Origin: Akkermansiaceae bacterium
GTDB lineage: Bacteria; Verrucomicrobiota; Verrucomicrobiia; Verrucomicrobiales; Akkermansiaceae
Direction: 5' to 3'
Length of the DNA: 44,765 nt
Assembly (NCBI GenBank): GCA_903837825.1
Contig: CAILVZ010000196.1
Span: forward strand, 1 to 44,765
This document shows, piece by piece, positions 3,001-33,718 of this stretch (its first letter is position 1; each line of letters starts with the position of its first letter). The position numbers and the translations under genes are program-made. The notes under the pieces are model-generated. The model was not told the DNA's origin. It ran no database searches and saw only the letters and a list, made by a program, of their open reading frames with translations.

Positions 3001-4497
3001 GTCAGAAGGCAAGCCAGCTAGGGCGCTGCTAGTGGTGAAATGGACGGTGCCCGAGTAGCTGGTCGAGGTCGTTCCACCCGAGGTCTTTGCGGTGACGGTA
3101 AAGCTTCCCTCAGCCCCTGCAGTTTGAGGGCTTGGGAAACCTGAAACCGTGAGACTCACGGCTGCATCATTGAGGGGGATCACAATACCAGATTGGCTGC
3201 CGGTGATTGAACTGGTCACCGTGTCTGTTGTGGTGATCGAGTGAGTCCCTGCCGTGTTGAAGGTGACTCCATTTGTGAACGTGTGAACGCCATTGTCTCC
3301 AGCAACAAATGTATAGTTTGATGGCAAGTTGGCAGTGCTGTCACTGCTGCTAAACTGGACGGTGCCGGTATATCCAGTGGCGATGTTACCATAGGTGTCC
3401 TTTGCGGTGATCGTAATGCTACCTGCGGTTCCCAGTGGTTGGGGGGAGGGGATGCCGGTGACGGTGAGGCTTGTGGCGGCGGCGGCCTGAACATTAAAGG
3501 TGGCTGTGCCCGTTTTGTTGCCTGGCCCAGTCACGACGAATGTTTGGTTGTTCCCCACCAATGATGGCGTAAATGTCACACCGGTGAGTACCCCTGCCGT
3601 AAAGCTGCCAGACGTTCCGGTGATCCCCGCCGTGCCGCTATAGGTCACTGGGCCATTGTAAGCCACCGTGTTTTCGGCCGAATCCTTCGCGGTAATGGTG
3701 ATGTTAGGGGTAGCCCATCCTGCCGTCTGTGGCGAGGAAATCGTTGAGATCGTGAAGTGGTCGAGATTTCCTGGAATATAGGTCACGTCGACATTGCTCA
3801 TTTGAATCTGGTCAGCTCCCAATTCCTTAGTGCCTTGGAATCCGACGCGGTTAAAAGTGAAAGTTAGGGGTGTTGCGTCTGGAAAGTCTGTGACACCCAC
3901 AAATTCCGCCGAGTCGGAAGTCCTCTTGAGTGATGAACTGATCAGCACGCCATTGGTGGAATCCCGCGCAATCGTGAATGAGAAACTATAGGTCGTGCTG
4001 GTTAGATTAGTACTGGTTAACGGGATGCTCGTCAAAGAGCTTGCGCCAGTTGTACTGGTGAAGGCACCCGTATTTACAGCGCTTCTCTCGTAGATCGATC
4101 CAGTTCCAGCACTACATGCATTCTGGGCGAAGTAACCCAACCAACCATTGGTGTCGGTTTTGCTGTTCACATTGAAAATCCCAAAGCGGAAGGTACTCCC
4201 TACGGTGATTGTTGTCGCAATCCCCCTCATCGTAAGATTTCCGCTGAGGACAATTTTATCGCTGGGATTGGTTAGGGTGATGTTGCTGGTCAAAGGTGAA
4301 TAAATCGACGAGCCATAGGTGCCGTTTTGGGCGTTGTCTGTGGAGTTATTGCCCCAAGTGGGAGAGGCGGTGGCATTGTTTGTCAGGACCATCGCCGTGC
4401 TCGCAGCTGGAGCCCACACTCCCGTCACTGGGGCCGCCTTGGCTAAGGATGCGGCGAGGATGAATGCGAGGAGCTTCAAGTGGATTGGAATTTTCAT
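40..4497 (-). CDS. Giant secreted autotransporter-associated beta-strand repeat protein
   Basis: A 1485-residue exported protein, probably on the cell surface or in the matrix. Residues 1-22 are a signal peptide ending AKA. Residues ~25-240 are a domain shared with the next two upstream genes (SPTWG...DNA near its start, FNRVGFQ and SNVDVTY near its end). Residues ~243-648 hold four Ig-like repeats of ~95 residues (SPQ...ITVTAKD...GVHTF). Residues ~650-1330 hold Gly/Thr/Ser-rich strands typical of autotransporter-associated repeats (GANTYTGNTSVTAGTL type). A DPDGDGISN calcium-binding-like segment lies near residue 1361, followed by a ~100-residue tail. I see no beta-barrel and no PEP-CTERM motif, so the anchoring route is unknown. 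The start at 4497 fits the signal peptide and has no Shine-Dalgarno. Adhesion or polysaccharide binding is inference. Confidence 0.88.
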   Translation of the reverse strand: MKIPIHLKLLAFILAASLAKAAPVTGVWAPAASTAMVLTNNATASPTWGNNSTDNAQNGTYGSSIYSPLTSNITLTNPSDKIVLSGNLTMRGIATTITVGSTFRFGIFNVNSKTDTNGWLGYFAQNACSAGTGSIYERSAVNTGAFTSTTGASSLTSIPLTSTNLTSTTYSFSFTIARDSTNGVLISSSLKRTSDSAEFVGVTDFPDATPLTFTFNRVGFQGTKELGADQIQMSNVDVTYIPGNLDHFTISTISSPQTAGWATPNITITAKDSAENTVAYNGPVTYSGTAGITGTSGSFTAGVLTGVTFTPSLVGNNQTFVVTGPGNKTGTATFNVQAAAATSLTVTGIPSPQPLGTAGSITITAKDTYGNIATGYTGTVQFSSSDSTANLPSNYTFVAGDNGVHTFTNGVTFNTAGTHSITTTDTVTSSITGSQSGIVIPLNDAAVSLTVSGFPSPQTAGAEGSFTVTAKTSGGTTSTSYSGTVHFTTSSALAGLPSDYTFVPGDNGVHTFSGVTLKSTGSHSITATDTSKSFVTGSQSGITVTGGSATGFVLSGLSNSSRINSPARITVTVLDAYGNTATGYTGTVSFTSSDSSASLPSNYSFSSGDAGVHTFTGLTLNTLGTQSVTVSDTVSSISATQSGVNVINPSTFTWAAASAGNWSDDTKWTADLGVAAAPLTTGRSDYTLNFTQPGSYTATHDLTAGMQMNQINFASTGNSTATVIIAGNNTITLASNGSTTPQINLGASTTANMTTPISLDSDLTFGGVGNGTLTLSGLISGSNALIKNGPGKVSITGTALTNSYSGGTIVNAGTLSAGVTDTTPATLGTGRITVNTGGNLSFERGTRSNNITLSGGTMISNNGFGCALSGSITLNATSTIQTNYSMSINGITSGSGGMTKTGSGPLYLANELNTFTGPVSIQAGRIYAYSINSVSGGLEASALGAPLTTADGTISIGAGTTTGNLSYQGYGETTDRVINLAGTTGGATLDQVGSGLLKFTSDFTASGSGNKSLTLQGSGLGKGEISGRIVDSASGITSLVKSGSVLWTLSGANTYTGNTSVTAGTLLITKPSSLYSATEANWTAAKITVSGNATLAVSTGGSDEFSGTQLGTLLTNLSSSNGNGLKAYASFGINTENAASAVTISSVISNSSGTTGGVLGIMKDGNGTLDLTGANTYNGTTKISKGTLSISGSGSLGNGSYSGAIQFGVGANLVYSSSANQTLSGLIDGYGSVTQSGTGILSIVGNPTDPNSYGGDTTVNSGILAVNGSAIDDYGYLIINGGKVQATGVETVDQLYFGSVQKAAGTWGASGSGATHIDNTHFSGTGTILVITGSTAVDNTLADWITTQGLQGTAADATADPDGDGISNALECILGGQPNPAIANSNSAALLPVVTQNLAGGMVFTFHRTDVSEDITTLGFQWSTGLTFNANDAVTVGATSATTNGVTVTVAEDSPDAATDTITITVPASKASGGKLFGRLQATAP
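2560..3770 (-). repeat. Tandem Ig-like repeats within the giant surface protein
   Basis: Four successive ~290-bp units encode Ig-like domains. The best three share codings of TGYTGTV or TSYSGTV, LPS(N/D)Y(T/S)F and GVHTF at the same spacing, and their DNA is visibly similar. The first unit, nearest the N-terminus, is the most diverged. These are coding repeats and could vary in number between strains by recombination. Confidence 0.75.
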
Positions 4498-4651
4498 GAT
4501 CGGATGGGGTAAGTGTTTGAGGGCGAGGCGGTGTGATTGGCGCGAGGTGAGGTGATTCGATGGATGGGTTTTTAAGAACGGTTCAGAATCGTGAACGATT
4601 GGAGTGTGATTATCAAAATTTAGGGTGGTACTACAAGCGCGCTGTCAAAAT

Positions 4652-4678
4652 AAACTAGGCTAAAAAGTGAACAGGTTT
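4652..4678 (-). promoter_or_regulatory. Shared upstream element, copy 1
   Basis: On the minus strand this reads AAACCTGTTCACTTTTTAG, then CCTAGTTT. The same block, 23 of 27 bases by eye, occurs at 8758-8784 upstream of the PEP-CTERM gene. Here it lies ~155 bp upstream of the giant surface gene. A TTGACA sits just downstream on the minus strand (4643-4648), but no well-spaced -10 follows. The rest of 4498-4756 shows no gene. I read it as an activator or repressor site for the surface-protein family; this is inference. Confidence 0.5.
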
Positions 4679-4756
4679 TTATCGGACGGGGCCGAAAGCG
4701 AGGGGGCTGATGTTGTTTTGATGGGCGAGTGGCGAGACCGCGTGCGAGGGTGTGCC

Positions 4757-30040: not shown

Positions 30041-30499
30041 ATGGATTCCGAAATGATTGTCGATCACAGCGAACCGGTTCGCCAGTTTTCCGTGTTGTTG
30101 CCCAACCGCGTCGGCGCATTGGCCGCGATGGTCAAGCTGCTGCGCTCGCTTGGCATCGAGGTAATCGGTCTGAGTGTGCAGGATTCACGCGATGCGACGG
30201 TCGCTCGGTTGGTGGTTTCAGACCCCGATGGGACGGAGCAGCTTTTCATGGAAAAAGGGATTCCATACACCACTTGCGAGTTGGTGGTCATTGCCATGCG
30301 TGAGTCGGGCCCTGGTCTCCTCCAATGTCTCGACACCTTGATGATCGCGGAGACCAACATCGATTTCGCCTACGCCTTGATGCCGAGCCCAGAAGGCCAG
30401 TCGATGCTCGCCATGCACGTCGAGGACTACGAGTTTGCGGTGGGCATCCTCCATCAGAGCGGCTTTAAGTTGATGTACCAAGATGACCTGAGTCGTTAG
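30041..30499 (+). CDS. ACT-domain protein
   Basis: A 152-residue protein with a recognisable ACT-like regulatory fold: FSVLLPNRVGALAAMVKLLRSLGIEVIGLSVQ is strand-helix-strand with the Gly at the helix start. A second similar unit follows (VVIAMRESGPGLLQCLDTLMIAETNIDFAYAL). Tandem ACT proteins usually bind amino acids and regulate a partner. No catalytic domain is fused. The ATG at 30041 is preferred to TTG at 30032. It is the last ordinary gene before the cassette island. Confidence 0.82.
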   Translation: MDSEMIVDHSEPVRQFSVLLPNRVGALAAMVKLLRSLGIEVIGLSVQDSRDATVARLVVSDPDGTEQLFMEKGIPYTTCELVVIAMRESGPGLLQCLDTLMIAETNIDFAYALMPSPEGQSMLAMHVEDYEFAVGILHQSGFKLMYQDDLSR

Positions 30500-30596
30500 G
30501 TGGCCGATTGGCTCGCCTCGACTCCAACTGACCACTTCTTTCGTATTCACAGATGCAGCGATCATGACTGGAATTCCCAGAATTGCACCTTTCGGG

Positions 30597-30648
30597 GCGG
30601 CATTTGTCCTGGAACAACCGCGCGCGGTTGTTCCAGGACAAAGGCCGC
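30597..30648. repeat. 52-bp palindrome (40-bp perfect core)
   Basis: 30603-30642 is a perfect 40-bp palindrome (arm TTTGTCCTGGAACAACCGCG). Beyond a single A/G mismatch it extends 5 bp further on each side (GCGGC / GCCGC), 26-bp arms in total. No T-run follows, so it is a poor intrinsic terminator. It lies ~100 bp after the ACT gene and 19 bp before the first cassette boundary. The flanks 30500-30596 hold nothing else I can name. Confidence 0.95.
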
Positions 30649-30666
30649 ACGCTACTTATTAACACT

Positions 30667-30673
30667 GTTCGGC
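30667..30673 (+). other. Integron recombination core (R'-like, left end of island)
   Basis: GTTCGGC fits the integron R' core (GTTRRRY with one deviation) and equals the R' box at 31948-31954. It sits 44 bp before the first cassette ORF, where an attI or a preceding attC would end. No matching R'' with a paired stem is evident upstream. Confidence 0.45.
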
Positions 30674-30710
30674 AAGATAATCTTATTACCAACAACATCC
30701 AATTTCCAAT

Positions 30711-31358
30711 ATGAACATCATTCTATTCGTCACAACAGTTCTGTTTATGACCAGTTCCATCTGCCTGCAAGCCCAGCAGAAAGACGATAGCCAAAAGGAA
30801 CCTTTTACCACAATCAGACATGGCCAGAGTGAATATTCAGTCGCTAAGTTCACACTGAATAAGCCGTGGATAATCCCTCAGAAAGTAGCATTTTTAGATG
30901 AATCTATGGAGCAATGGAAGATCCTAGTGTTGATCGGTAAGAGCGATGCTTCACAGCTCCTAACAACAACGCAATTTAGGTATTTTCATGAATCTACTAA
31001 AGAGATTTCAGATGATCTTATCGAGGCACAAAAGAAACGAATGAGCCAGCTATATTCGAAACCCACAAACCCAGTGAGGGTCGAGGACTTGTATCTAGTC
31101 ATCGACAAGAAGACTTCAAAAGCTCGTTTAGTGATACCATTTGTGTCAGATCTTGGAGTCTCCTATACATCTTATGCACGATCTAATACGAAATGGAAAA
31201 TCGTGATAGAGGATACTGCTGATCCTATTTTACTATCTTCTCTCGATATCCTTCCGGCATACAACGAGCACATTGGGGCAGACTCCATAAAGTTTAGCGA
31301 AGAGAAGCTGGAAGAGATCACAAAAATTTACGTAGATCGACCACTGCAGCCGAAATAG
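30711..31358 (+). CDS. Cassette 1: exported orphan protein
   Basis: A 215-residue unrecognised protein with a signal peptide (~1-22, ending LQAQQ) and a mature chain rich in Lys, Ser and Asp. Codon use is clearly AT-richer than in its neighbours (ATA, AGA, CTA, TTA codons are frequent), a sign of foreign origin. It lies between an R'-like core at 30667 and an attC-like site at 31391, with 32 bp from its stop to the latter, the usual layout of an integron gene cassette. No catalytic motif seen. Confidence 0.8.
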   Translation: MNIILFVTTVLFMTSSICLQAQQKDDSQKEPFTTIRHGQSEYSVAKFTLNKPWIIPQKVAFLDESMEQWKILVLIGKSDASQLLTTTQFRYFHESTKEISDDLIEAQKKRMSQLYSKPTNPVRVEDLYLVIDKKTSKARLVIPFVSDLGVSYTSYARSNTKWKIVIEDTADPILLSSLDILPAYNEHIGADSIKFSEEKLEEITKIYVDRPLQPK

Positions 31359-31390
31359 AGTCGACCTCTGTGATCAACAATAAACTAACG

Positions 31391-31479
31391 GCCGAACAAG
31401 CCGGCTCATCCAACGGCGGGTAACGTCCTTCTTTGAATTCGGGCTTTCCTTCCCGCCGTGGATGGCCTAGACGTTCGCT
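31391..31479 (+). repeat. attC-like recombination site 1
   Basis: 89 bp. R'' GCCGAAC (31391-31397) and R' GTTCGCT (31473-31479) frame a 15-bp stem: 31404-31420 pairs with 31452-31466. Two extra bases, T31406 and A31412 or A31413, are both on the left arm, as the extrahelical bases of real attC sites are. Unpaired 6-base spacers stand on both sides (AAGCCG, CTAGAC), and a 31-base variable loop closes it. This is classic folded attC structure, not just matching boxes. Confidence 0.8.
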
Positions 31480-31485
31480 ACAAAT

Positions 31486-31869
31486 ATGAAGATCAATATT
31501 CCGATGCTCTTTCTACTAGCCATGCCGACTTCAGGTTTCGCTGCTGAAGAGGCGCAGCCACGATTTCATCATGTAGCCGAATTCCTCACCTGGGCTGACA
31601 AGAAGCTTACCGCCGATGACTACGAAGCACTGATCAAGGCGCAAGCCGCTGTTAAGGACACACAGGCGACGAGGCTAGCTTATATCAAGAAGCTCGATTC
31701 GGATTTAGGCGAGGCTAAGCTTGCCGAGGTTTTCGAGGGACGGGATTTTCCCAAAGACGCGACCACATTCAAGCTCGGTGGGTGTTGTATGGAATTGAAG
31801 CATTGTCACATTGATTTCGAGAAGGAAGGCACGTCGTGGACGATCGCGCGAATCTGGCAATGTCGATAA
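31486..31869 (+). CDS. Cassette 2: small exported cysteine-containing protein
   Basis: A 127-residue protein with a signal peptide (~1-19, ending GFA-AEE) and a short, charged mature domain with Cys residues near the end (GGCCMELKHC, WQC). I do not recognise it. The start lies 12 bp after the R' cleavage region of the preceding attC-like site, the tight spacing typical of cassettes. It probably uses an outside or cassette-borne promoter; none is visible within it. Confidence 0.78.
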   Translation: MKINIPMLFLLAMPTSGFAAEEAQPRFHHVAEFLTWADKKLTADDYEALIKAQAAVKDTQATRLAYIKKLDSDLGEAKLAEVFEGRDFPKDATTFKLGGCCMELKHCHIDFEKEGTSWTIARIWQCR

Positions 31870-31876
31870 TCTCCAA

Positions 31877-31954
31877 GCCTAACGGTCCATAAGCTTTTCA
31901 ATTTCATTTCAGAATCACTTCAACGGCGCCCGCAGGAGTACTCAAACGTTCGGC
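31877..31954 (+). repeat. attC-like site 2 (weak stem)
   Basis: 78 bp from a perfect R'' GCCTAAC to R' GTTCGGC (31948-31954), 7 bp after the cassette 2 stop and 21 bp before the cassette 3 start. The boxes are good and correctly placed, but I cannot pair the internal arms beyond a few bases. It may be a hybrid of two attC halves left by a deletion, or degraded. Confidence 0.55.
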
Positions 31955-31975
31955 ATCAATTCATCAGGCACCTTC

Positions 31976-32335
31976 ATGAAAAACATCAAATATTCGGACA
32001 TCGAATCAGTCACACGACATGGAGTGCACCCATCGTATGCGATTACAAAAATTGATTCAGAAATCGGGCATCAGATATTGCGTTGCTTCACAAGCGACAT
32101 GACTCAAGTTGAGCGCGTATTACCTTTTTGGCCATTTCAAAAGAAACGTAGACATGGCAATGGGCGTTATATTCTCATGTATCACCTACGCAATAATCAT
32201 AGCGTTTCTATTGCCGTTGCTGATCCCGGATACATCATACTCGACGGTTGCTACTATGAGGTCCCAGTAGCGGCGTGGAACGAGGGCCAACAACTCGTTG
32301 ACCAGCACCACACACCCCTTAATGAAAAGAAGTAA
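31976..32335 (+). CDS. Cassette 3: small soluble orphan protein
   Basis: A 119-residue protein without signal peptide, rich in His, Tyr and Ile. The middle (KKRRHGNGRYILMYHLRNNH) is basic; I recognise no family. The start follows attC-like site 2 by 21 bp, and its stop is immediately followed by another R'' box. AT-rich codon use as in cassettes 1 and 2. Confidence 0.75.
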   Translation: MKNIKYSDIESVTRHGVHPSYAITKIDSEIGHQILRCFTSDMTQVERVLPFWPFQKKRRHGNGRYILMYHLRNNHSVSIAVADPGYIILDGCYYEVPVAAWNEGQQLVDQHHTPLNEKK

Positions 32336-32342
32336 GCCGAAC
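32336..32342 (+). other. Truncated attC-like site 3 (R'' only)
   Basis: GCCGAAC directly after the cassette 3 stop (then AAAGCG) is identical to the R'' box at 31391. No matching R' with a stem follows within the next ~250 bp. This suggests the right end of the array was lost or rearranged. Confidence 0.45.
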
Positions 32343-32623
32343 AAAGCGAATTCAATTTCCCACACAAATAGAAGAAAACATCATGCCTATAAGAAAATTC
32401 CGATTCGAGGGGGGATTCGGGTAGAATCTCAGTATCCCAAACAAGAGCCGAGCTGAGTCAGTGAGGTGCGGCCTGAAGCCAGCCCTTGCAAGGTCCCGAA
32501 TCATCAGTACCAACGGTGAGGCCTCATGCCAGCTTGACGCAATGTGTTCATTTGCGTGTCCGCGTGATCGGGGTTGCACGGTGGCGGTGTGGATAATACC
32601 GTGCGTTCTCAACTCCAACGATT
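32343..32623 (+). other. Non-coding region with several hairpins upstream of rlmM
   Basis: About 280 bp without a convincing gene; an ATG at 32382 gives only 13 codons. The second half has several inverted repeats: CCTTGCAAGG (32484-32493), TGAGGCCTCA (~32516-32525), ACGCAA/TTGCGT, and GCACGGT/ACCGTGC (32576-32604). GATAAT at ~32592 could be a -10 box for rlmM. Possible leader RNA or old island remnant. Confidence 0.4.
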
Positions 32624-33718
32624 TTGACTGTTGTTTCACCTGATCACCCCCCTGCGACTTGGCTGATCCGTATTTCGGAGGTGTTTGCGGATTTTTCGGG
32701 TGAGATTGTCGAGGGTTTAGGGGGGCATTCGCTTAGGAAGTTAGGCAGTGAGTATCAGTTGATTCAGGTGCCGAGTGTCGAGGGGCTGCAGGGTTCGGAG
32801 GCGTCCAAGTATCTCAGGTGGAACTTGCCGGTTGAGCATGCTTGGCCCTGCAATCCTGAGAAAATGGAGGGATTTGTTGAGAAGGCGGCCCAAGCGATGT
32901 TTCGTAAATTTGGCGAGCGCCATCCTCAGGCGGTTTTCATTGGCCAGCTCGATCCAAGCGCATCAAGTCGCTACTACAAGACGCTGGCATCGAACCTCCG
33001 TGGGAGAACGCTCCAGCTCTTTTCAAAGGAGATCGCCGCATTCAAGGAGGTTGAAGCGCAGCAGCCCAGTCGAGAAACTTTGTTCTGCCTCGTGGGCAAG
33101 GAGGGTTTGTTTTGCGGGATGCAGAGCCCGCGGGATTCTAACGGATTTTATCCGGGTGGTACCAAGTATATTAGCCAAAGCTCGCCAGACACCATCAGCC
33201 GAGCAGGAGCGAAAGCGGCAGAGGCGCTTCATGGTTTGCTGCTGCATCATCCAGCACCGCCGAAGGGCAATCATTGGCTTGAGCTTGGCGCGAGCCCTGG
33301 GGGCATGACAGCGGAATTGCTGGCAAGGGGCTACAAGGTCACAGCGATCGACCGTGCGCCGCTCGACAAGCGGCTCGATCGCCGCAGCGACCTAACCTTC
33401 GCTCAGATGGATGTGGCGGCATTTGTGCCGAATGGGAGCATGAAGTATCATGCGATTCTATCGGACATGAATGGCGATGCCCGTGAGGCGATCCGGCAGG
33501 TGGTGCGATTGGGGAAAAATCTCAATCCAGGTGGGCTGGTGATTTTCACGCTCAAGACTCCGGGTGTGACGTCCTACATGGAAACCAACCTGCTCTATCG
33601 CGATGTGGTGAGCGAGGCCGTGGCCGGTGGACTCGAGTTCCTTGCGAGCACGCACCTCACCTACAATCGCCATGAATTCACGTTGTTTTTCAAAAGTGCC
33701 ACTACGAGGCGGACCTAA
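32624..33718 (+). CDS. rlmM: RlmM-like 23S rRNA 2'-O-methyltransferase
   Basis: A 364-residue protein, similar in length to E. coli RlmM (366). The C-terminal FtsJ-type domain has the SAM loop ELGASPGGMTAELLARG, and the KDKE tetrad can be read as K in ISRAGAKAAEA, D in LSDM, K in FTLK, and E in HEFTL. The N-terminal half is the THUMP-like region. The start is a TTG at 32624 right at the island edge; no nearer ATG exists until far inside, so the native start may have been replaced when the island formed. The stop overlaps tsaE by 4 bp on the other strand. Confidence 0.85.
   Translation: MTVVSPDHPPATWLIRISEVFADFSGEIVEGLGGHSLRKLGSEYQLIQVPSVEGLQGSEASKYLRWNLPVEHAWPCNPEKMEGFVEKAAQAMFRKFGERHPQAVFIGQLDPSASSRYYKTLASNLRGRTLQLFSKEIAAFKEVEAQQPSRETLFCLVGKEGLFCGMQSPRDSNGFYPGGTKYISQSSPDTISRAGAKAAEALHGLLLHHPAPPKGNHWLELGASPGGMTAELLARGYKVTAIDRAPLDKRLDRRSDLTFAQMDVAAFVPNGSMKYHAILSDMNGDAREAIRQVVRLGKNLNPGGLVIFTLKTPGVTSYMETNLLYRDVVSEAVAGGLEFLASTHLTYNRHEFTLFFKSATTRRT

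Follow-up and report, generated by a model that had tools for sequence, protein, structure and literature searches.

Between an ACT-domain gene and an rlmM-like methyltransferase gene of an Akkermansiaceae bacterium lie three small genes set among integron recombination boxes. The DNA analysed, called the window here, is the whole of contig C196 (CAILVZ010000196.1; 44,765 nucleotides) of the metagenome-assembled genome (MAG) G000, which comprises 3.26 Mb in 399 contigs and is 94% complete with 5.2% contamination. Judged from its sequence, the locus is an integron in which the integrase gene (intI) was lost and the attI element kept, and is neither a group of ordinary genes nor a plain cluster of attC sites lacking integrase (CALIN). 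Species that share this kind of intI-less junction carry different cassettes from the attI crossover point onward, which suggests cassette exchange at an orphan attI. Other genomes and contigs of the genus are given by handles such as G139:C12, and contigs without a genome handle are those of G000. The features of the locus are as follows.

30041 to 30499, plus strand: ACT-domain gene, conserved left neighbour of the array (PF19571, E = 1.8e-8)
30520 to 30673, plus strand: attI element without intI; the same element lies directly 3' of intI in five relatives
30603 to 30642, no strand assigned: 40-bp perfect palindrome within attI, imperfect in other copies
30668 to 31473, plus strand: cassette 1, a complete unit, with start GTTCGGC and its own R'' box GCCGAAC
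30711 to 31358, plus strand: open reading frame (ORF) of cassette 1, 215 aa
31391 to 31479, plus strand: attC1, the sole complete attC of the array
31474 to 31876, plus strand: body of cassette 2, its own attC lost in the window
31486 to 31869, plus strand: ORF of cassette 2, 127 aa
31877 to 31954, plus strand: attC2, 5'-truncated and of another attC type, assigned by alignment with complete type-2 sites
31949 to 32342, plus strand: cassette 3, with start GTTCGGC and its own R'' box GCCGAAC at 32336
31976 to 32335, plus strand: ORF of cassette 3
32347 to 32440, plus strand: dispersed repeat, assigned from copy counts, that replaces the rest of the cassette 3 attC and forms the distal edge
32624 to 33718, plus strand: rlmM-like methyltransferase gene, conserved right neighbour and present in most relatives (FtsJ-like, PF01728, E = 1.9e-5)

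An earlier note on this DNA had described three AT-rich orphan genes on the plus strand, and this description holds; it had also read signal peptides in two of the products. The G+C content of the array is 0.454 (0.41 in cassette 1), while 700-nt intervals elsewhere in the contig average 0.566 (standard deviation 0.023, minimum 0.497). None of the cassette products has a significant family match in Pfam, NCBIfam or PADLOC, and no function was assigned; the N-termini of the first two resemble signal peptides by eye. A covariance model of 16 attC sites taken from other loci, none of them in the window, has a single match there, at 31391-31479 (107 bits, E = 1.6e-28), where an R''/R' pair (31391/31473) had been proposed. 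This site, attC1, folds better than shuffled sequences on both the top and the bottom strand. At E < 0.01 the same model finds 9 sites in G000, 32 in G069 and 8 in G139. A DNA search with the cassette region gave matches in 53 of 73 genomes of this genus; almost all of the matches fall at attC1 or attC2, and these two are therefore attC types typical of the genus.

The other proposed boxes needed correction. At the second site the R' box at 31948 (GTTCGGC) is real, whereas the supposed R'' box at 31877 falls in the L'' region of the 5'-truncated attC2; the covariance model gives no match at 31877-31954, and folding there is no better than in shuffles (z = +0.5). The lone R'' at 32336 is present and pairs with the start of cassette 3, and it belongs to a third site, attC3, whose remainder was cut away by the dispersed repeat. 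The array thus holds an attI and three attC sites, one complete and two damaged. A CALIN is expected to contain at least two attC sites, the number that IntegronFinder requires by default (PMC12444791); here the model finds one complete site, attC2 and attC3 being truncated. The CALIN-like label of the earlier note was right in that intI is absent, and misses that attI is retained; with a single complete attC by this model, the array may fall below the default count.

A cassette that was once circular carries at its end an R'' box complementary to the R' box at its own start. For 22 cassettes in ten arrays the boxes were picked out of the sequence by hand and then checked by script. In the four variable positions, 19 of the 22 cassettes showed this complementarity, against an average of 2.6 and a maximum of 9 for shuffled partners in 20,000 trials. 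For cassettes followed by another one, R'' fits the cassette's own start in 11 of 12 cases and the start of the successor in 1 of 12. Window cassettes 1 and 3 carry this signature, and the end of cassette 2 is missing. A 92% identical copy of cassette 2 (31473 to 31877) occupies the first position at a different attI locus, G139:C12, where it starts with GTTCGCT, ends with AGCGAAC and has kept its native attC. The genes of the array are accordingly best described as integron cassettes by origin.

The cassette 2 body is joined to two attC types, its native one in G139:C12 and a truncated foreign one in the window (31870-31885 versus near 4360). Homologues of its gene also occur in ordinary, attC-free contexts (G061:C1, 61% amino acid identity; G072:C52, 50%; G120:C8, 35%), so this family exists both as a plain gene and as a cassette. 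One body with two attC ends, together with plain chromosomal homologues, bears on how genes become cassettes.

The first box reported, an R' at 30667, is present and belongs to attI: GTTCGGC at 30667-30673 is the attI core, with crossover expected between 30667 and 30668. At the left edge of the attI element (30520) homology to G139 at the ACT-rlmM locus ends; G139 lacks attI there and has a different intergenic leader instead. A family search with 30545-30676 found matches in 10 genomes, several holding three or four copies, and the window is one of at least four attI copies in G000 whose intI is absent or truncated. Because the array still holds attI, an integron that lost intI is a better description than a stray attC cluster.

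Two attI subtypes meet in the palindrome, which makes the window attI a mosaic. To the left of the palindrome it is 80-88% identical to the intI-less copies of G069 and G139, and to the right it is 93-96% identical to the C8, G139:C12, G105 and C393-type copies. The palindrome pairs at 20 of 20 positions in the window and at 10-19 of 20 in the other attI copies. A selected hairpin was considered and set aside: since the palindrome is perfect in the window copy only, it is as likely to have been perfected secondarily, through template switching or recombination, as to have a function. It is not followed by a T tract, and a consensus scan found no plus-strand promoter or terminator.

As the earlier note had stated, there is no integrase gene in the window, and tblastn with the C372 integrase detected none in cis. 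The intI genes of G000 lie on other contigs; C372 carries a complete integron, answering the note's proposal to look for intI elsewhere in the genome. The C372 product (IntI) is full length (387 bits, cut-off 265) and aligns with the Vibrio integrase structure 2A3V over 314 residues (E = 1.4e-73), and its catalytic motifs are present by inspection. It neighbours another attI subtype, one without the palindrome. When the same query was run against the attI loci found in the family search, a graded series from full to truncated to absent intI emerged. A full-length span of intI stands just 5' of the approximately 130-bp attI element in five related genomes (G186:C3, G105:C1, G176:C14, G168:C180 and, with a likely frameshift, G076:C5). 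Truncated intI adjoins attI at six loci (G186:C6, G186:C12, G170:C104, G139:C12, C8 and C393). No intI was seen at the window, C42, G139:C173, C128 and C176, G069:C13, C73 and C19, or G074:C207, some of which lie near contig ends (G139:C128 and C176 begin 126 bp before attI). The intI-linked copies are co-directional, in the order integrase, attI, cassettes. Flank alignments connect the stages: C393 resembles the upstream context of the intI-bearing G076:C5, and G074:C207 aligns with sequence upstream of the G186:C3 intI and then passes straight into attI. The truncated intI of C393 adjoins the 3' end of an apparent tRNA gene (by eye, at about 3580-3640 of that stretch).

Three orthologous pairs of loci bear on what happened after intI was lost. 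G069:C73 agrees with the window in its ACT-attI junction and its distal edge; the flanks are 88-90% identical, and intI is absent from both. Homology ends at window position 30680, at the crossover core, and restarts at 32346; between these points the two loci share no cassette, just an attC-like stretch. The members of the second pair, C8 and G139:C12, have in common lysS, attI and the 5' junction of what remains of a truncated intI, and differ in the first cassette, which in G139:C12 is window cassette 2; that contig ends soon afterwards, which limits the comparison to first cassettes. In the third pair, G069:C19 and G139:C128, attI is 90.7% identical over 248 bp and the distal flank 96.7% over 3081 bp, and the arrays are different; the shared stretch starts at the C128 contig start, upstream of which G069 has an intI-less leader. 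In all three pairs the first cassettes diverge from the exact attI crossover point, and in two of the three, the window included, the entire array is seen to differ. Since the intI-less or truncated junctions are common to both members of the window/C73 and C8/C12 pairs, intI was lost before those species split. Comparison of these loci shows that cassettes were replaced from the crossover point between species already sharing an intI-less junction. A chimeric contig can be dismissed as the source of this pattern, because the ACT-attI junction and the distal edge both recur in the independent MAG G069 (D14.bin.19). The cassettes of the orphan arrays G139:C128 and G069:C19 include one for a trypsin-like protein and one for a TIR-domain-like protein (by eye), a possible defence cargo.

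We consider it probable that the window is an orphan attI platform whose cassettes are exchanged in trans, with some homologous recombination between attI copies in addition. An IntI whose gene lies elsewhere in the genome would insert and excise cassettes at the orphan attI; in present-day G000 the predicted trans agent is the intact, co-directional C372 IntI. The attI copies may also swap arrays by homologous recombination, as the mosaic of two subtypes in the window attI implies. Only cassette 1 appears mobilisable as a unit today, because the distal end of the array is decaying. Contig C67 starts inside a C372-type attI and matches C372 without a difference over 120 nt, as far as ACTGTT, beyond which it enters a different first cassette. 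An assembled population with an active integron would give such a fork, as would two integron copies. Action of IntI in trans on CALIN cassettes is accepted (PMC12444791, PMC9668308), and we infer that IntI in trans is the agent of turnover.

Several points weigh against this reading. What the comparisons provide are apparent products of recombination and not the recombination events themselves, and the genomes of the key comparisons are MAGs throughout. The mosaic attI indicates that homologous recombination can have replaced the window array, and at this one locus that route is not separable from action in trans. Integron integrases of the genus fall into two clades that are about 40% identical, and those of G069 all belong to the clade other than that of C372. 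The G139:C182 intI is of the C372 clade (94% identical over the first 217 residues), with a one-base frameshift and a cut at the contig end. An acting integrase is therefore not identified in every species. The G139:C182 frameshift may be real decay or an assembly error. The clade of C372 is co-directional with attI downstream; the other (G069:C86, G069:C84 and others) lacks that attI core downstream and possibly has the classical divergent arrangement.

The first alternative is that homologous recombination, either among the dispersed attI copies or with the DNA of other strains, replaced the window array, and that no integrase acted in trans at this site. The mosaic attI, with a left part like the intI-less copies and a right part like the C8, C12 and G105-type copies, fits such a replacement, as does the presence of cassette 2 both in the window and at the C8-type locus of G139. 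In the other two orthologous pairs, however, the attI halves are of a single subtype and the change begins exactly at the crossover core, and the cassettes carry the signature of integrase action; we regard replacement of this kind as unlikely, though a serious contender. The next possibility is a relic that acquired all its cassettes when an intI in cis was still present, the species differing only by deletions from one long ancestral array. Truncation of attC2 and attC3 does point to a decaying distal end. Yet three orthologous pairs share an intI-less junction and differ in their first cassettes, exact excision of first cassettes at attI would require an integrase anyway, and the sister copy of cassette 2 sits at a different locus, G139:C12, all of which leaves the relic improbable. 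Off-target insertion of cassettes at a chance site is an accepted route to a CALIN (PMC8618304) and would suit a window without intI, but the left end is a full attI element common to intI-linked loci, which refutes a chance target and makes this origin very improbable. Three unrelated chromosomal genes with chance boxes, a reading suggested by the small ORFs without family matches and by the cassette 2 homologues outside cassettes in G061, G072 and G120, deserve practically no credence, since the attC model match, the cassette signature and the exact cassette-unit copy at another locus refute it.

The preferred reading, an orphan attI served in trans, can be set beside known systems. CALINs are commoner in bacteria than intI-bearing integrons (PMC9668308), and their proposed origins are off-target insertion, intI loss and rearrangement; integrons have also been reported previously from Verrucomicrobiota (PMC8618304). 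The window resembles a CALIN in having attC cassettes without a nearby intI, for which mobilisation in trans is expected (PMC8618304, PMC12444791). It differs in keeping a complete attI at the proximal end and just one complete attC, and in that there are several loci with the attI platform per genome, among them intermediates with a truncated intI. The co-directional order of the intI-linked copies is like that of the Treponema chromosomal integron (PMC3607928), from which the window copy departs in lacking intI and this genus in having several attI loci per genome. In the T. phagedenis remnant, attC sites likewise persist at a chromosomal place after intI loss (PMC3607928); that case is read as one of system loss, whereas here the cassettes changed afterwards and an intact integrase is still in the genome. 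Xanthomonas CALINs are also intI-less clusters at species-conserved positions with intI elsewhere (PMC12444791); here, by contrast, the proximal end is an attI common to intI-bearing loci and replacement begins at its crossover core. What is unusual here, on comparative grounds, is the presence of orthologous attI-only or intI-truncated sites with cassettes changed after integrase loss. We did not find a description of such sites in the literature searched, the coverage of which was incomplete.

Accounts of how CALINs form and persist rest mostly on proposals, and one genus here displays the stages together, from attI linked to intI, through attI beside a truncated intI, to attI by itself. The orthologous loci act as a dated test, with intI gone before two species split and cassettes differing later, and they are evidence from nature that cassettes come and go at attI sites without intI. 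Swapped cassettes at an orphan site suggest continued gene exchange with help from elsewhere in the genome. More tentatively, and with a little less than an even chance in our estimate, the genus may run a distributed integron, in which one or a few integrases serve many dispersed intI-less attI platforms and cassettes are exchanged in trans and through attI-repeat recombination. If so, intI loss at a site would be a stable state and not the death of the integron.

The chromosomal setting agrees with the earlier note, which had read the DNA as verrucomicrobial chromosome holding integron cassettes with no integrase beside them; a near-identical ACT gene was found in records that are Akkermansiaceae MAGs. 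An Rfam scan of the window returned tRNA alone and no integron-related match. The note had also pointed to an intact ACT-rlmM junction in relatives, and short, cassette-free gaps were found in distant ones (132 bp in G076, 192 bp in G170), with gaps of 34-171 bp in some other records from more distant relatives. The relatives do not hold all three genes in common, so the core-gene alternative raised at the time failed. The note's other refuting condition, the lack of a significant attC model match at 31391-31479, failed as well, the match there being strong.

The sequence at the right edge was considered as an unusual attC half and rejected. It has 2 copies in G000, 4 in G069, where it is kept at this edge, and 19 in G139; the G139 copies lie mostly away from cassettes, and it is thus a dispersed intergenic repeat. 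Often directly after this repeat of approximately 95 bp comes a leader of approximately 190 bp, running from TTGACA to CTACCTCCAT, with 10 copies in G139 and 2 in G069. It was seen at L158 5500-5690 (G139), in G139 C149, C173, C103, C93 and C159, and in G069 C13 and C19; it lies 5' of attI in G139:C173, G069:C13 and G069:C19, and directly upstream of other genes elsewhere. In G069:C73 the first cassette ORF is followed, at about 4300-4700 on the reverse strand, by a series of imperfect CCCCTTACGCCATGGGATTTT-type repeats.

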